A stretch of DNA of 53,413 bases from Pseudobdellovibrionaceae bacterium (lineage in GTDB: Bacteria > Bdellovibrionota > Bdellovibrionia > Bdellovibrionales > Bdellovibrionaceae), in contig CANFQX010000020.1 in assembly GCA_947449255.1 (NCBI GenBank), forward strand, positions 1 through 53,413. The letters run 5' to 3'. The notes under the pieces are model-generated. The model had not been told where the DNA came from and did not search any database. It worked only from the letters and a program-made list of their open reading frames with translations. Below, piece after piece: positions 1-53,413 of the stretch (positions within the stretch are counted from its first letter, which is position 1; each line of letters begins with the position of its first letter). The position numbers and the translations under genes were made by a program.

Positions 1-32
1 GTTGTTTGTTCGAAAATTTTTTTTGAAATTGT

Positions 33-54
33 GTTAGAACTTTACAGTTCTAAC
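33..54. other. Perfect hairpin in the presumed rRNA spacer
   Basis: A 9-bp stem (33-41 with 46-54) closes a 4-base loop. It lies between tRNA-Ala and the left window edge, where a 23S gene is expected on the minus strand. It could be part of the pre-23S processing stalk or simply spacer structure. There is no U-run suited to a terminator. Confidence 0.5.
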
Positions 55-81
55 TAAGAGCCCAAAAATCTTTTATTCTAG

Positions 82-100
82 CTATTCAGTTTTCAAAGAG
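82..100 (-). promoter_or_regulatory. boxA-like rRNA antitermination motif
   Basis: Read on the minus strand the sequence is CTCTTTGAAAACTGAATAG, close to the conserved element found before 23S rRNA in many bacterial 16S-23S spacers (family knowledge: NusB/S10-dependent boxA). It lies downstream of tRNA-Ala on the same strand. I infer that a 23S rRNA gene starts left of position 1. Confidence 0.45.
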
Positions 101-213
101 CGAGTATCTATTATTCAGCAGTTAATTACTTAGCTGCGAGGTGACGATTATATCTTAATATTTCTAATCGTCAATATTTATTTTCAGTAATTTAATTTAA
201 CTACTGAAAAACT

Positions 214-289
214 TGGTGGAGGCAACAGGGATCGAACCTGCGACCTTCTGAATGCAAATCAGACGCTCTCCCAACTGAGCTATGCCCCC
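214..289 (-). tRNA. tRNA-Ala (anticodon UGC)
   Basis: This is a complete 76-base cloverleaf on the minus strand: acceptor GGGGGCA pairing with TGCCTCC, a D arm with GCTC/GAGC, anticodon loop TTTGCAT with anticodon TGC, T loop TTCGATC, and an encoded CCA end (214-216). tRNA-Ala(UGC) normally sits between 16S and 23S genes. Here a protein gene, not 16S or tRNA-Ile, lies upstream of it. Confidence 0.97.
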
Positions 290-370
290 TCAAAGTGGTG
301 CTGTTCTCTCGTAACCCTTCGAAAACGTCAATAGCTTTTTTAAAAATAGTTAGTTGACTCTTTGCGTGAA

Positions 371-414
371 AATTTACCCCCCCCCTACTATTCCTGTAGG
401 GGGGGGGATAAATT
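371..414. terminator. GC-run hairpin, probable terminator
   Basis: Nine C's plus TAC (377-388) pair perfectly with GTA plus nine G's (396-407) around a 7-base loop. Six more A:T pairs extend the stem after one bulged base (408). It lies just downstream of the minus-strand gene at 444-959 and before tRNA-Ala, so it probably ends that transcript or insulates the tRNA. The U-run after the stem is weak (TAAATTTT), so the termination role is inferred. Confidence 0.55.
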
Positions 415-443
415 GGAAGCCTAACTTGTTGTTTCCACTAATG

Positions 444-959
444 TTATGCAATGGCCCTTATTTTTGACACAAAGAGTCTGTTAAGCCAATCTCTCTCCTC
501 GGAGAGATCAAAACCAACTTTTTCGCCCCCAGCCACTACTGCTAGGTATACTTTTTTAAGAACCTCAAGCTCAGACTCCAGGCCTAAGTCTGAGCCCATG
601 GATTCAGAAATAGCTTCCGAGACACTTAGCAGGTCCGGCGTTGTTACTACCTTCGGCAGTCTCGTCATATCCAACCCCATTGTTTCAATTGGCTTGAATC
701 CTACAAGTGAATCAGTCAGCAAAACCTTTGTTTCGTTCCTAAAGTTTATCTGGATGAATGCTTTTTTTTCAGCGTCAACCCTCTGTAGGATCTCTACGAC
801 CTCTGATGTTTGAAATGTAAGTGCTTTTCCATCAAAATCTTGCCTTACTAGAATTCTACCTGATTCTTGAACCACAGCTCGTAGGCCCTTTGAAGAGTCA
901 ACAAAGTTTAGAATTTGGTCTAACTCTGCATGCATAGTACTGGAATTTGAATTACTCAA
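444..959 (-). CDS. Hypothetical protein, 171 aa
   Basis: I do not recognise a family. The protein is acidic and soluble, with no signal peptide or membrane segment. The N-terminal half looks like alternating strands (GRILVRQDF, AFIQINFRNETKVLLT), as in small beta-barrel domains such as PilZ. No PilZ RxxxR signature is visible, so that is only a fold guess. The C-terminal third is helical and acidic. The longest frame starts with ATG at 983 without a ribosome site. A TTG at 959 has GGGAGG six bases upstream, so I chose TTG. The gene stands alone, followed by the strong hairpin at 371-414 and tRNA-Ala. Confidence 0.65.
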   Translation of the reverse strand: MSNSNSSTMHAELDQILNFVDSSKGLRAVVQESGRILVRQDFDGKALTFQTSEVVEILQRVDAEKKAFIQINFRNETKVLLTDSLVGFKPIETMGLDMTRLPKVVTTPDLLSVSEAISESMGSDLGLESELEVLKKVYLAVVAGGEKVGFDLSEERDWLNRLFVSKIRAIA

Positions 960-1027
960 AACATCCCTCCCGGGTCTAATCATGTTAAGGGTATCGACAA
1001 ATATGGGATAGACTTTACGGTAAACTA

Positions 1028-1199
1028 CAAAAAAGACCTTAAACAGGTCTCTCGAATTGTTTCAAATTGACCCAATTGAAACTCCGTCTATTTCCTGACC
1101 CGATAAGCTAATTTTTAAATTGCGCGGGAACACCTTGCCTGGGCTTGTAGGCTGATATTTATATCCGAATCGCTGTATTGCAGTATTCTGCAGCACACG
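1028..1199 (-). ncRNA. Candidate small RNA of about 170 nt
   Basis: On the minus strand a perfect -10 hexamer TATAAT (1206-1211) is followed about 170 bases later by an intrinsic terminator (1029-1050). Nothing between them codes for protein. The span holds a tight hairpin (TGCAG-AATA-CTGCA) and an imperfect 8-bp helix near the 3' end. No convincing -35 box is present. Length and layout recall 6S-like or other abundant sRNAs, but I cannot match a known family. Confidence 0.25.
1029..1050 (-). terminator. Intrinsic terminator, minus strand
   Basis: The stem AGACCT/AGGTCT has a 5-base loop and is followed on the minus strand by TTTTTT (plus-strand A's 1029-1034). The stem is short but the arrangement is classic. 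No protein gene reads into it from the right, which is why a small RNA is suspected. Confidence 0.55.
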
Positions 1200-2160
1200 A
1201 ATTCAATTATATCGGTTGTTAATTTTTTTAAATGTTAAACCTTTCCGAATTCTTTTTTAAAGCCTTTTTTTGAAAAATCCGCAGCCCCAACATTTAGGAC
1301 AATCGATTTTTATATATAAAGCTAAATCGAGGAGACTAATGTGTTTATATTTATTTTGATCAGCCACATTAGGGTTTTTAGTTTCTGTTTTCAAAGGTAA
1401 CGGCTAGATAGTACCATTTTTTGAAATAATGTATTTTGTTGTATAAATTTCAGAACATTACCTAGCCCAGTAGGTTTAAAATAGAAACATCAGAGTTTTT
1501 GATCATTGGGCTATCGGTTAAATACAAAATGCGTCCACCTATGCTACCTTGAATGTCCCTAATAGCGGCGACCCTACATAAGCAGGACATTTATTATCAT
1601 AAACTTACATCTTTATAGCGAAATGTCTTACTAGTAATCAAAGGGGTTCAGTATAAGTAGTCGAACTTGGCCGCTCAGGCCATTGGCATTTACATCCGCA
1701 GGCAAATTTAGTGAGCTCTCAATTTTAAATCAATTAGCTGCTCAGTCGATTTTATTCAACCGTAAGATTATGCCTCTACGTCGCATTAATATTTATCCCT
1801 AGAGAACAAAAGAACAATGCTATTTCTGCCATTTTTTTGGGACCAACCATGAAGCTTCGCTATTTGTCACTTTTTTTTCGAACTTCAGGAAAAACTCAGC
1901 ACGCTGAAGACTATAACGCTTAAGTGGAAATTTAGTCCAAATACAGTCAAACTCTAAGTCTTTTTGGATGTTGAATGCTAATAGATTTCGATCTACGCAA
2001 ACTAAACTATAAAGGTATTCGCTACAGATATCAGCTTTTTAAAGCTTGAGAGACTTCAGCTTTTCAACCAATCCCTAAACGGCAGCTGTCATTTAAAATT
2101 TGTATGTACTTGATCATTGTCAGTTGAAAACCTTTAAAAATAAGCATAAAGTCTAGCTCT

Positions 2161-2466
2161 ATGATTATAACACGCTGGCAGGCACCAATTATTCCTAGTA
2201 AGAACCAAATAAAGAAAATATTAGAGAATGAGGGCCTAGAACCTTTTGAAGAGACTTATGAACCGCAGGTAAAAATTCCTGATCATCGTCACCCTTTTGC
2301 TGAAGTTCGAGTTATTGTTTCCGGGGAAATTTTATTTAATATTTCTGGTAATCAATTTGTTATGCGTCCTGGCGATAGAGTTGAAATTCCTGCAAACACC
2401 AAACATTCCCATATGATTCAAGGTACTGATGATTGCGTTTGTATCTGCGCACAACGAGCAATATAG
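2161..2466 (+). CDS. Small cupin-domain protein
   Basis: This 101-residue protein is essentially a single cupin beta-barrel. Cupin motif 1 is seen around residues 40-58 (DHRHPFAEVRVIVSGEI, with the metal-ligand pattern HxH...E) and motif 2 around 68-83 (PGDRVEIPANTKHSH, with the last metal histidine). Such single-domain cupins bind a metal and act as small-molecule sensors, isomerases or dioxygenases. The substrate cannot be told from sequence. No clear Shine-Dalgarno precedes the ATG. The gene is isolated between two long empty stretches, so no neighbour suggests a pathway. Confidence 0.85.
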   Translation: MIITRWQAPIIPSKNQIKKILENEGLEPFEETYEPQVKIPDHRHPFAEVRVIVSGEILFNISGNQFVMRPGDRVEIPANTKHSHMIQGTDDCVCICAQRAI

Positions 2467-3191
2467 CACTCTTCAGGCTTAGACCATATTGATCTATTTT
2501 ATAGTTTGTTTCTTTATTATTTTTTGGTGGAATCCTTTTAGAACCAGATTTAAATGATGTATTGTAATTCCATCTCCAGGTTCGATTTAGACAACCCAAT
2601 TAAGAGCTCATAATCGAAGTAAAGTCGAATAAGCTGATCAATTTTTACGCTAAAAAAAGAAGTTCATCATCAATGAGCATAACTCATAAGAGATCATACT
2701 GGCTGTGTTTGCAAAAAAGTTGGAGATTTGTAGTATTGCTACTCATATCTAGACTAGCTGACACCGGGGATAGCTACAGAAAAGGTTGCCCCTCAACAAT
2801 CTAATGGGGCCAGTTTGAGCTGAACAAACTCCCTTCATCCTCAGTTTTGCGATGCATTTAAGGATGATCGATGAGAGTGAGCGGATTAGCTAGATACTTA
2901 GAGTGATACCATAAAGATAGTGACCCTATTTAATTTGAAAGCCAATCCAGTGTTCTTTTCAATGCCAACATAAATACTTGCAAATATTGGCGATATAAAC
3001 TTTTGCTGGTGTTTTTTAAATTCATTAACACAGTGAATACCAGCAAGGTTTGGCCATTTTTTAATATTAACTAGAGGTTTTTTTGGAGCCCTAGCTATGA
3101 CTGAATTTTCAAGCGCTCCATAGTGCTATAAAATCACTCCACATCTAATTCACTCTTTGACTATATATTCATGATAAAATTGAAGTCTTTT
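2467..3191. other. 0.7-kb gap, possible decayed coding DNA
   Basis: No intact gene is seen. On the minus strand, 2898-3125 is open for 75 codons with a protein-like composition but no start codon, and could be the remnant of a lost gene. An inverted repeat TTGCTGGT/ACCAGCAA lies within it near 3005-3050. No transposase motif is recognisable. Confidence 0.5.
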
Positions 3192-4034
3192 TTATTTTTC
3201 ACCAACAATATAGGCGATCCAACTTTGACAGGACTCCCCATGGTCAACTCTGGTGAATTCGCCATTCCCAGAGCCATCCTTTGCGGTTCCTTCCCAATAA
3301 ATATGAGTTTTTTTGAAACCAACTTCGCTCATAATTTCTCTAAGCTCGGGTATAGTCCAAAGACGCCAATCATAGGTAAAAACTTGTTCGAACTTTTTCC
3401 CGCCAACTTTGAAATGGATATGAAACAAAGCTTCATTGGTTACGGGGTCAAAGTTAGTCTGGTCCCAATAATAGGTAAAATTATCGATTTTTTTTGTGTC
3501 TTCAATTGAATCATAGCACTGACTTCCTCCGAAAAGATCGACTAAGAAAATTCCGTCCTTATTCAATGAGCTCAGCACACTAGCGAAGTATTTTTTTACC
3601 AATTCCCTTTGTTTTAAACAGAAAAAAGAAAAGTTCATTGCTGCAACAATGTCAGCCTTCGGTAAATTTGGCGCTAATACATTTCCTTCTATCAGCTGCA
3701 TGCGACGCTGCTGCTCTGGCTTAAGTTTTGCCAAATAGTGACTTTTGCCATAGGCCATTGGCTCAGGATCTAAGTCAATCCCAACTGAACGATGAAGTGA
3801 ATTCATTTTTATCCATTCAGTGGATAAAGCAAAGGTGCCACAAAAATCTTCGCGAAAAACTTTTGCATTTTTACCCTTGATCTCATGATAAGTATCTCGA
3901 ATAAAAACCACGTCGTGTTCTGCTGACTGAACAGCCTTTCGGTAAAGCTCATATTTATCGAATAAGAACTTATTTGTTTTTTTAACGACCTGGCGGCGAG
4001 AGTTCTGAGATGGCCCCTTTAAGGATTTTGACAT
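3192..4034 (-). CDS. Class I SAM-dependent methyltransferase
   Basis: This 280-aa cytosolic protein has a Rossmann methyltransferase core. Motif I is REDFCGTFALSTEW near residues 62-75, the acidic ribose-binding loop is GIDLDPEPM near 85, and the post-I region ADIVAAMNFSFF lies near 128. The substrate is unknown. The short Lys/Arg-rich N-terminus might favour a nucleic-acid or charged target, but that is a guess. Its ATG overlaps the stop of the E1-beta gene (TAATG, one shared base), with AGAGG upstream, so it is the last gene of a translationally coupled three-gene operon with the two E1 subunits. The link to 2-oxoacid metabolism is positional only. Confidence 0.85.
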   Translation of the reverse strand: MSKSLKGPSQNSRRQVVKKTNKFLFDKYELYRKAVQSAEHDVVFIRDTYHEIKGKNAKVFREDFCGTFALSTEWIKMNSLHRSVGIDLDPEPMAYGKSHYLAKLKPEQQRRMQLIEGNVLAPNLPKADIVAAMNFSFFCLKQRELVKKYFASVLSSLNKDGIFLVDLFGGSQCYDSIEDTKKIDNFTYYWDQTNFDPVTNEALFHIHFKVGGKKFEQVFTYDWRLWTIPELREIMSEVGFKKTHIYWEGTAKDGSGNGEFTRVDHGESCQSWIAYIVGEK

Positions 4035-5089
4035 TATGGAACCTCTTCTAAAATATCACGGACAGCCAACTCAATATCCTGAATTTGTGGAACAGAGTTC
4101 TTTTCAAGATTTGGATTAAGACCAATACCTGGTAAATTTTTTCCTGCCAAAACTTTAGGACGTGCCATCAGCTGATAAAAACATTCTTGAGTGACTCTGT
4201 AGGCAAGGTGTTCTCCAAAATTTGTAACATCTGTATCTTCATTTACAAATAATACTCGTCCTGTTTTTAGCACTGAAGTTTTAATCATATCCCAGTCATA
4301 AGGATAAATGGATCGCAAATCGATCACCTCTATGGAAATATTTTCTTGAGCTAATTTTTCTGCAATTTCTGTACATAAATGAACCATGCGACTGTAGGTA
4401 ACTATAGTTAAGTGATGGCCCTCATGCACAATCTTCCCTTTTCCAATCGGCACAAGGTATTCCTCAAGATCTGGCCATCGAGGCTTCCAGCCAGCAGAAT
4501 TTTGTACAGGCTTATCAATCATTGCCTTCAATGCTTTTTCATCTGACGGCTCGCCTGGAATTAACTCAATACCCTTATGCCGCATCAGTGCTTTTGATTT
4601 TAAATATAAAACCGGATTTGGGTCTTTAATTGCAGACAGCATAAGGCCATAAGCATCTAGTGGATTCGATGGCATTACTATTTTCCAACCTGGAATTCGA
4701 GATGCCCATGCATCAAAGGAATGGGAATGATAGACTGAACCAAAAATGCCAGCTCCAACAGGTGTCATGACAACCATTGGCAAAGGAACTTGCCCATTGG
4801 TACACCACAAAGTGTTGCCGGCAATTTTCAATAAATCTATGGTATTAAAAATATAATCAGCAAATTGAATCTCTGCAACACAGCGATCTCCTGCCATTGC
4901 GATCCCCATTGCCATACTGATTATTCCACGCTCATCCAACGGGGTGTTCCAAGCGGTTTGCAAACCTTGAGTTGCTGTAAAGACACCCCCAAGAGGAGCA
5001 CCAACATCCTGGCCAAAAATATCTTTCACACCAAGATGTGCTTCACCATAATGCAAAGCCATTCTGATTGCTTGTGCCATACTTGCCAT
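4034..5089 (-). CDS. 2-oxoacid dehydrogenase E1 component, beta subunit
   Basis: This is the beta subunit of a thiamine-diphosphate E1 (pyruvate or branched-chain 2-oxoacid dehydrogenase type), 351 aa. It shows the transketolase pyrimidine-binding domain (LDERGIISMAMGIAMAGDR, then EIQFADYIFNT near residues 55-90) and the C-terminal transketolase domain (LTIVTYSRMVHLC, EVIDLRSIYPYD, VNEDTDVTNFGEHLA). The start at 5089 is chosen because GGAGGAAG stands eight bases upstream and the ATG overlaps the alpha stop as TAATG. The longer frame to 5104 lacks this support. With alpha it forms the alpha2beta2 E1 that decarboxylates a 2-oxoacid and passes the acyl group to E2 lipoamide. No E2 or E3 gene is nearby. 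Confidence 0.93.
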   Translation of the reverse strand: MASMAQAIRMALHYGEAHLGVKDIFGQDVGAPLGGVFTATQGLQTAWNTPLDERGIISMAMGIAMAGDRCVAEIQFADYIFNTIDLLKIAGNTLWCTNGQVPLPMVVMTPVGAGIFGSVYHSHSFDAWASRIPGWKIVMPSNPLDAYGLMLSAIKDPNPVLYLKSKALMRHKGIELIPGEPSDEKALKAMIDKPVQNSAGWKPRWPDLEEYLVPIGKGKIVHEGHHLTIVTYSRMVHLCTEIAEKLAQENISIEVIDLRSIYPYDWDMIKTSVLKTGRVLFVNEDTDVTNFGEHLAYRVTQECFYQLMARPKVLAGKNLPGIGLNPNLEKNSVPQIQDIELAVRDILEEVP

Positions 5090-51172: not shown

Positions 51173-51583
51173 TTGAGGATATCTCATCCGTCAAATCTGT
51201 TCTGCAGCAGGAGTGCTCGAGAAAATGTTACACAATCGGCAACGGCAAATCACTCCGAAATTGGAATTTCTTTTGAGCAATTTATCATCAATGAAGTGCG
51301 AGCCTATATTTCTTATCGCCGTCGAGATATCAATATTTACTTTTGGCGATCTCGAAATTACGAAGTGGATCTTCTTATTGGCGACGAGATTGCAATTGAA
51401 ATTAAATTTGCGGAGAAAGTGAAGAACGAATTTTTTGATGGTCTTTTAGCCCTGAAACAAGAAAATCTGCAAAAACAATTTCACCTTGTTGGTCGCTTTA
51501 GTCGGGGCGGTGAATATAAAGACTGCCGCTATTGGAATTGGCAGGTTTTTTTAGAGACCCTCTGGCAGGATAAGCTTTTTTAG
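51173..51583 (+). pseudogene. Decayed DUF4143 / AAA_14 ATPase remnant
   Basis: The last ~105 residues (from about residue 30) match the C-terminal DUF4143 domain of AAA_14 ATPases. GISFEQFIINEVRAYISYRR corresponds to the conserved LEIRAYLSYRR region, then YEVDLLIGDEIAIEIKF (PD-(D/E)xK-like core) and a final VFLETLWQDKLF. Family members have ~380 residues, so about two thirds, including Walker A, is missing. The first ~30 residues are unrelated frame. About 140 bases upstream a perfect ribosome site AGGAGGTG (51031-51038) precedes a GTG frame that stops after 12 codons (51044-51082), probably the broken 5' end of the same gene. Confidence 0.75.
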
Positions 51584-51643
51584 GAATTTTTTTGGGCGCC
51601 TTCGGCGGGAATTAAAAAATGATCAAATAATCAAATAACCAAT

Positions 51644-51664
51644 GATAGCCGCGTCGCGGCTATC
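51644..51664. other. Perfect hairpin across the fibre gene stop codon
   Basis: GATAGCCGCG (51644-51653) pairs with CGCGGCTATC (51655-51664) around a single base (a 9-bp stem with a 3-base loop in practice). It covers the stop codon of the minus-strand fibre gene. A T-run follows ~22 bases further on, too far for a standard terminator. Confidence 0.75.
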
Positions 51665-53413
51665 AGAATCTCCGGACACAACGGACATAGACTGCAGCCG
51701 TCTTGGTGAAGTTGTTGACATATCCGAGGTTGAAGTTGAAGAACCAGGCGCCCGTAGTACTGTACTCAGTGGAGGACCAATAAGACGAAGTGTGGCTAAA
51801 TCCTCCAATCACAGGTGAGTTTTGATAAAGCAAATTTAACTCCAGACGAGCCGGTAAATACCAATCGGAATAGCCTGCATAAACAAGATTTTCGCAGTAT
51901 TTTGCCGCATTTGTGGTAGCATAAGTTGCCAGTGCAGCTGATTGCGCTTGCCCGTCAACAGCATTGGGCGGTGCTTGAATTGATGTATTTGATTCTGGCG
52001 CTGCCGTCGCCCAAGCCAGCGTGAGACTATCCGTCCCCCCAGCACAGGTAGGCGTTTCCACATTCGTCGCACAACCCCCAGGCGTCGTGAAATATTGATG
52101 TCCATTGTAACTGCCAGCAAAAAGTGATTTCATTCCACCCGTCGCATCCGTTGTCCAGCACGAATGCCCGACAATACAATCCTCAGTTTTATTCGTTAAA
52201 ACCCATTTGCTGCCAAGTTTAGTTAATGTCACTGAAGAATAATTCAAACCCTGCAACTCAAGCGTCGTATCCCCGCCCGGAAAGGCATCGGCACCTGAAG
52301 GGGTGATCGTCACCATCTGTGCTACTTGTCTAGCAATGGTCACCTGCCAGCCATTCACAAGCCCTGACAGTGCTGGCAAATTGAACACACCAGCAGTGGT
52401 GCCGTTGTAGGTGTAGTAAATCCCAGAAGTTGTATTCGTCACATTGTAAGTTGCCGCAGTGACATCGGTGTTTGTTACAGCACCGCCGCCGCCTGCGGCC
52501 TGCCAACTTGGCGCAGCCCCCGCACCATTGCTGGTCAATACAGTTCCACTCGTAGAGGCCGGCAATCGCGTCAACGCACTCGTCGTTGAAGCGTACAATA
52601 AATCACCCACAGCATAAGTGCTCTGCCCTGTTCCACCATTAGCAACAGGCAAGATGCCCGTAGCACCGGAAACACTCAACGTATCACAAGTCCAAGCATC
52701 CGTAACCGAAGTGTAATGCATGGATTGACTTGCGCCAGCACAGGAAGGCAGAGCCGTTGGCTCCCACTGCGAAAGGGTATTATTCCATTTTAAATAAGTG
52801 CCTAATGTCGGCGCCGTGGAAGCCACTGTGCGGTTTTGCAATTTCGCAACGGTAAAGGCACCTGCATTTGTCATGCTGACATCCGAAGACGGCGTGACAG
52901 CTGTGGCCACACCACCCGCATTTCCCACCAAAATATTTCCTGCTGATAAAGCCGTTCCCTGTTTGCTATTAAATGTATTCCAGTCTGTACTTGAAAGGTA
53001 ACCATCCGTTGAAGTCGTCGCTTTCGCAATTGAAATCGCTGGGGTCGTCGTGCCGGTCGCAACACTGAGCGGAGCAGAGGCCGTGACATTTGTCACTGTG
53101 CCTGAACCCCCAACTAAATTTGTATAGGCGCTGCCGTTTTGGGAAGCTTTAAAAGTATTTGCGCTAGTATCAAAATAAATAACTCCTTGGCCCGCTGAGG
53201 ACACAGCAGGCGCTGCCATGCCTCGCAGAGTGAAGGCGCCGTTGATATCCATCGCACTAGAAGGAGTTGTTGTGCCAATGCCAACTTTGCCGGTGCTGTC
53301 CACACGAATTCGCTCCGTACCTGCACCATCAGCAATTAAAATATTGTTCGATGATGTGGCGATGGTTGAACCCGTGTTTGAACCTATCACCACGTTGTTA
53401 CTTCCCGTTGTGA
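51663..53413 (-). CDS. Tail-fibre-like adhesin with C-terminal DUF1566 domain (5' end outside the window)
   Basis: At least 582 aa are visible and the frame stays open to the window edge (TTGSNNVVIGSN...), so the start lies outside. In order: phage-tail-fibre-type repeats (STGKVGIGTTTPSSAMDING, GQGVIYFDTSANTFKASQNG, DGYLSSTDWNTFNSKQ, GILPVANGGTGQSTYAVGDL), typical of trimeric fibre stalks, then a DUF1566 (Lcl_C, C-type-lectin-like) domain over the last ~140 residues, marked by YSDWYLPARLELNLLYQ, SSYWSSTEYSTTGAW and the closing YVRCVRRF. Bdellovibrio carries families of such chimeric fibres with varied tips that bind prey (MIDAS, Caulton et al. 2024, from memory). Higher GC than its neighbours by eye suggests transfer. 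Prey or surface attachment is inferred. Confidence 0.85.
   Translation of the reverse strand, partial: TTGSNNVVIGSNTGSTIATSSNNILIADGAGTERIRVDSTGKVGIGTTTPSSAMDINGAFTLRGMAAPAVSSAGQGVIYFDTSANTFKASQNGSAYTNLVGGSGTVTNVTASAPLSVATGTTTPAISIAKATTSTDGYLSSTDWNTFNSKQGTALSAGNILVGNAGGVATAVTPSSDVSMTNAGAFTVAKLQNRTVASTAPTLGTYLKWNNTLSQWEPTALPSCAGASQSMHYTSVTDAWTCDTLSVSGATGILPVANGGTGQSTYAVGDLLYASTTSALTRLPASTSGTVLTSNGAGAAPSWQAAGGGGAVTNTDVTAATYNVTNTTSGIYYTYNGTTAGVFNLPALSGLVNGWQVTIARQVAQMVTITPSGADAFPGGDTTLELQGLNYSSVTLTKLGSKWVLTNKTEDCIVGHSCWTTDATGGMKSLFAGSYNGHQYFTTPGGCATNVETPTCAGGTDSLTLAWATAAPESNTSIQAPPNAVDGQAQSAALATYATTNAAKYCENLVYAGYSDWYLPARLELNLLYQNSPVIGGFSHTSSYWSSTEYSTTGAWFFNFNLGYVNNFTKTAAVYVRCVRRF

Follow-up and report, generated by a model that had tools for sequence, protein, structure and literature searches.

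The C-terminal tip of a fibre-like gene in a Pseudobdellovibrionaceae bacterium is probably an orphan variable repeat (VR), written by a diversity-generating retroelement (DGR) of the kind that we found in a relative, genome G235, and that is now gone from the source genome. The window, that is, the whole stretch of DNA analysed here, is 53,413 bases long and represents the entire contig C20 of the source assembly; the fibre gene overruns the contig end, where its N-terminus is lost (Table 1).

Table 1. Features of the fibre locus in the window and of the DGR locus of G235 with which it is compared
Feature	Positions	Strand	Details
Fibre-like gene, 3' part	51663..53413	-	582 codons present; stop at 51663; low-complexity shaft, then C-terminal Lcl_C domain
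Lcl_C tip domain, C-type-lectin-like	51672..52019	-	PF07603, formerly DUF1566; domain and structure-library matches
Putative orphan variable repeat	51668..51797	-	gapless alignment to the 130-nt TR/VR of the G235 DGR; boundaries from G235 TR/VR homology
Stretch with fifteen codons aligned to Asn (AAC/AAT) of the G235 template	51693..51767	-	
Perfect hairpin, candidate DGR target-site hairpin	51643..51665	-	10-bp stem with a loop of 3 nt; begins on the stop codon
Second terminator-like GC hairpin	51594..51609	-	CCCGCCGAAGGCG...; G235 counterpart CCCGCCGCAGGCGGG
Short ORF, probably a gene fragment	51173..51583	+	matches only the last part of DUF4143 (domain match)
G235 locus L101 (G235:C96), complete DGR with MAT-like fibre	2-4162		VR 2093-2222, Avd 2312-2674, TR 2862-2991, RT 2978-4162, then integrase-like gene

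The shaft of the fibre shows a weak similarity to structures of Bdellovibrio mosaic adhesive trimer (MAT) fibres (8ojn, 8onb and 8onc; E 0.04). The tip domain, for which a DUF1566 type had been correctly anticipated, is the single Lcl_C domain of the source genome and reaches the stop codon of the gene. It resembles the C-terminal domain of Legionella Lcl (8q4e; E 2e-11, about 70 aligned residues), and a C-type-lectin fold is assigned to it through this homology; a single-sequence structure model attained a pLDDT of 36 and was left unused. The 38-codon tip with which we are concerned here corresponds to the C-terminal half of the domain. At the DNA level, close relatives are limited to matches of 32-64 nt in two genomes of the family. 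A phage origin of the tip was considered and rejected, with 0 matches in annotated phages and no match to the tip or its 3' motif in viral contigs; reverse transcriptases (RT) of the G235 type are present on viral contigs together with Lcl_C-like targets or ORFs.

The tip was originally singled out by a switch to C-ending codons, with four AAC and several TTC codons among them, and the counts bear this out. Twenty of the last 39 sense codons end in C, the maximum for the gene, in which the sliding mean over 39 codons is 7.7. C-ending codons number 19 in the 38-codon tip, whereas draws for the same amino acids under local codon usage give 7.95 on average and never reach this value (0 of 20,000), a simulation that rules out amino-acid composition as the source of the excess. 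Furthermore, in a comparison with 21 other genes of the window, stretches of 38 codons always contained fewer than 19 C-ending codons.

Among 369 genomes of the phylum, with one genome per species, the closest match to the tip (61-64% identical) comes from G235, where it is the VR of a complete DGR with 16 of the 17 mismatches between template repeat (TR) and VR located at TR adenines. The Avd protein of this DGR scores over the cut-off of the Pfam bAvd model and under that of the NCBIfam model DivGenRetAVD (E 6e-15). The tip of the source gene and the G235 template align gaplessly over 38 residues (YWSSTEYSTTGAWFFNFNLGYVNNFTKTAAVYVRCVRR and YWSSTENNNTNAWNFNFNNGYANNNNKTNNNYVRCVRR, respectively), with identical residues at 22 of the 23 non-Asn columns and at only 4 of the 15 Asn columns (Fisher 1.2e-5); in other words, 11 of the 12 residue differences fall at AAC or AAT codons of the template, and none of these 11 changed residues is K, Q, E, M or W. 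At the non-Asn columns, every other tip without a TR shows at most 18 agreements with the G235 template, compared with 22 for the source tip. On its own, the Fisher test lacks specificity, since most of the variation of other tips lies at Asn columns as well and these tips too give low values against the G235 TR (e.g., L077, 1.1e-6), and we take the pattern by codon position to be the informative part of the comparison. At the Asn codons, tip and template differ at 18 of 30 first and second positions and at 4 of 15 third positions; at the other codons, the respective values are 4 of 46 and 9 of 23. The third base is that of the TR in 8 of the 11 changed Asn codons (p 0.003 under two null models). 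Two changes, one Asn-column codon (GCA) and an Ala-to-Val replacement at tip position 22, do not fit an origin from template adenines. Thus, the differences are concentrated at template adenines, the template being that of a relative.

Consistent with this pattern, 14 of the 15 Asn columns of the tip contain NNC or NNT codons (NNY), where the usage of the gene would give 55% (p 0.0009-0.0017); once the amino acids are held fixed, the p value of the excess is only 0.056. The mean NNY fraction at variable columns is 0.89 in known VRs and 0.69 in tips without a TR (P 0.003). Five of the 43 TR-less tips reach 14 of 15, and some of these high-NNY tips may be orphan VRs too.

An ordinary lectin tip might likewise show its differences at exactly these variable columns, which is a point against an orphan VR. 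In the main rival reading, the source gene carries an ordinary Lcl_C tip that never met a DGR; a tip of the G235 lineage would have been recruited later and its template would have evolved Asn codons at exposed positions, so that the differences arose on the template side; horizontal origin or chance would then account for the C-ending codons. The source genome is devoid of DGR parts, most Lcl_C tips in the phylum have no TR, and the tips that have a DGR occur at dispersed places in the tree (7 changes, clustering no greater than with shuffled labels), all of which fits this scenario. However, it leaves to chance the NNY codons at 14 of 15 Asn columns, the template third base in 8 of 11 changed codons, the strong excess of C-ending codons confined to the tip, and a hairpin in the same place as in G235, and we consider it unlikely. 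In a tree built without the Asn columns, the source tip groups with the G235 VR and the tip G055b (98/95). The latter, a member of the same small clade as the source tip, has the hairpin at the stop codon and no VR signature.

The hairpin itself, TGATAGCCGC-GAC-GCGGCTATCA (read from 51665 to 51643), is perfect and closes the region as originally described, with its first bases lying on the TGA stop codon. It is the only stem of at least 7 bp that begins no more than 8 nt from a stop among the 44 genes of the window that were checked. A hairpin is likewise found on the stop codon of the G235 VR, with a different stem and the same 3-nt loop length, and of the G202b VR, with a different stem and the GAAA loop familiar from BPP-1. 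The TR copies carry no hairpin at a stop codon, and the same is true of most other tips, the exceptions being G055b and a long terminator in G004. Other known VRs (G030, G261 and G226) have no such hairpin on the stop codon. In phage BPP-1, retrohoming depends on a hairpin following the VR; the structure of its stem and its 4-nt loop matter, whereas the stem sequence is free (PMC3240598). Compared with the DGR form of this element (7-10 bp, GC-rich, 4-nt GRNA loop), the tip has a 10-bp stem at the stop and a 3-nt loop, and since the loop is 3 nt both here and in G235, the hairpin is supportive evidence and not decisive.

We regard as a serious possibility, albeit one that we do not favor, that this hairpin is merely a transcription terminator unrelated to any DGR, which would be compatible with every other reading of the locus. 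A terminator scan reports the stem with a T-rich tail, and the downstream gene converges on it. Nevertheless, a compact T-run is absent after the stem, a second GC hairpin lies some 35 nt downstream in the source locus as well as in G235, and the position on the stop codon is common to the true VRs of G235 and G202b and missing from the TR copies. Even under an orphan VR, the hairpin is possibly now only a terminator-like stem. Between the two hairpins (51610-51640), the fibre stop is followed by an AT-rich tandem array whose units measure about 7-8 nt (ATTTGATTATTTGATCATTT), and such tandems come after the stop in many Lcl_C fibre genes from different families (G063, G028, G072, G226 and G261).

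The source genome was searched for the components of a DGR. A profile search with PF00078 (RVT_1) produced 0 matches, the DGR RT of G235 used as a query retrieved 0 candidates, and Avd (PF22296) was not detected in the genome at E<=1. No near copy of the tip region was found in the genome at E<=10, a protein-level search gave a single tip match, and an adenine-tolerant search for a template, in which a single pattern let each base of the putative VR be adenine and up to 3 mismatches were accepted over 95 nt, matched only the region itself. As had been observed from the outset, the window contains neither an RT nor a TR; it is also free of Avd and of RT or Avd remnants. Hence all three hallmarks of a DGR, namely, RT, near-identical TR and Avd, are absent from an assembly that is 99.97% complete by markers and comprises 34 contigs. 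Because no DGR RT, Avd or TR is found, the genome in its assembled form has no operating DGR. The original prediction had named two signs that would count against it, a genome free of retroelement RTs and near copies differing at random bases; the first is what we observe, and the second is inapplicable since the genome holds no near copies. The proposal of a DGR-like variable region therefore stands as regards origin, given that relatives carry true VRs in this place, that the adenine codons of the G235 template account for nearly all residue differences with third bases largely kept, and that the hairpin is shared; a functioning DGR at the tip is not borne out.

An active DGR in cis was rejected, the cassette being absent beside the fibre gene. 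A DGR acting in trans, from a cassette present in the cell and missing from the assembly or residing on an unassembled plasmid or prophage, seems very improbable. The assembly does consist of 34 contigs, with that of the fibre ending inside the gene, remote DGR targets are known (PMC8144416), and in G030 the RT and its two VR fibres are on separate contigs. Nonetheless, several searches yielded zero RT, Avd or TR candidates in this nearly complete assembly, and the stretch just downstream of the VR, the place of the cassette in G235, is assembled and holds the DUF4143 fragment and hpf. The fragment ORF sits between hpf and the fibre, where G235 has Avd, TR and RT. When the hpf neighbourhood was compared with that of 22 other members of the genus, the fibre and the DUF4143 fragment adjoined hpf only in the source genome, so that synteny is unable to tell gain from loss.

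DGRs that target Lcl_C tips are found in relatives. Within the family of the source organism, RTs are found next to Lcl_C tips, with adenine-specific TR/VR pairs in G030, G055 and G058; another adenine-specific pair, in G036, has a different target. The latter pair (L064, G036:C188, 2800-2919 and 4607-4726) has an RT and an Avd-like gene nearby, and its target is apparently not an Lcl_C tip. Further Lcl_C DGRs were identified in G202, G226 and G261, and like G235 and G030 these are examples in the phylum of intact or nearly intact Lcl_C-target DGRs. G261 (contig C3) contains two separate Lcl_C DGR cassettes (L115 and L151), one with an internal TAG stop in the RT. A literature search did not find discussion of DGRs in Bdellovibrionota.

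Several other loci might represent DGRs at different stages of decay. In G021, a member of the source genus, an ORF located just after an Lcl_C remnant (L136, G021:C384, 1387-1701) joins 31 Avd residues, in frame, with the C-terminal portion of an RT (blastp 6e-9 and 3e-17), and judging from its sequence this is a DGR that decayed by deletion. In G072, two paralogous fibres (L083 and L152) with similar bodies have tips that differ at 21 first and second codon positions and at 1 third position, compared with 6 and 8, respectively, upstream of the tip. This pair bears what looks like the classical DGR signature, and a search with the G235 RT did not find a DGR RT in the G072 genome. Given the apparent deletion in G021 and the signature in G072, orphan VRs seem to recur in the phylum. 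In G017, also from the source genus, the tip of L078 has NNY codons at 15 of 15 variable columns and the genome has no DGR RT; this is possibly another orphan VR.

Because the source genome holds no DGR machinery, we infer the DGR mechanism for the tip chiefly by comparing it with a single relative, which is about 40% diverged. Under this scenario, the change would have run from template to tip: an ancestor carried a DGR like that of G235, with Avd, TR and RT, which overwrote the 3' end of the gene with a copy of an AAC/AAT-rich template. Replacement of template adenines by random bases would have given rise to NNC and NNT codons at exposed positions, and the codon usage of the template would have been left across the whole tip. 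The hairpin at the stop codon could have served the DGR as a landing mark. The Avd-TR-RT cassette would since have disappeared, either by loss or because the gene was transferred without it, and the tip would now be fixed or drifting, still presenting one lectin-like variant. By analogy with MAT fibres (PMC10769870) and Lcl, this variant may recognise prey or other surfaces and might bind something such as prey surface glycans.

More generally, it is conceivable, with the odds in our judgement only slightly against, that the fibre tips of the Bdellovibrio lineage, probably prey-recognising, owe their diversity to DGRs that are gained and lost again, with the source locus, the G072 pair and the G021 remnant as successive stages. 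If so, a cassette rewrites the tip and later disappears or stays behind, and a frozen variant persists in the genome. For the recognition of very different prey by predatory bacteria, MAT fibres with exchangeable tips are leading candidates; intact DGRs on such fibres in the phylum, together with the putative orphaned VR described here, offer a concrete and testable mechanism for rapid change of tip specificity. Moreover, a VR could remain recognisable after its retroelement has gone, through comparison with the template of a relative.

The source locus can be compared with four known systems. Like the DGR of Bordetella phage BPP-1, which targets Mtd, it combines a C-terminal tip of predicted C-type-lectin fold and NNC/NNT variable codons with a hairpin that immediately follows the VR close to the stop codon and whose stem sequence is free; unlike BPP-1, it is devoid of RT, Avd and TR, its lectin family is Lcl_C, and its loop is of 3 nt instead of a GRNA tetraloop. 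DUF1566 is the commonest Pfam domain of DGR targets (PMC6642488), and the locus shares with DGRs of this class both the domain and the position of the variable region, although it consists of the target only, with no cassette. The C-terminal domain of Legionella Lcl (8Q4E) belongs to the same family and is trimeric, C-type-lectin-like and able to bind glycosaminoglycans; unlike the source fibre, Lcl has a collagen-like stalk, and it is not reported there as a DGR target (PMC11162425). Finally, among the MAT fibres of Bdellovibrio bacteriovorus, the C-type-lectin tip of Bd2740 has been compared with Mtd, and no DGRs are reported in these fibres (PMC10769870). Members of the MAT superfamily carry, behind a signal peptide, a conserved beta-rich domain of about 130 aa at the N-terminus; the N-terminus of the source fibre lies beyond the contig end. 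The source fibre, from a Bdellovibrio relative, resembles the MAT fibres in its low-complexity shaft and exchangeable C-terminal tip, and differs from them in the weak match of its shaft and in the Lcl_C family of its tip.
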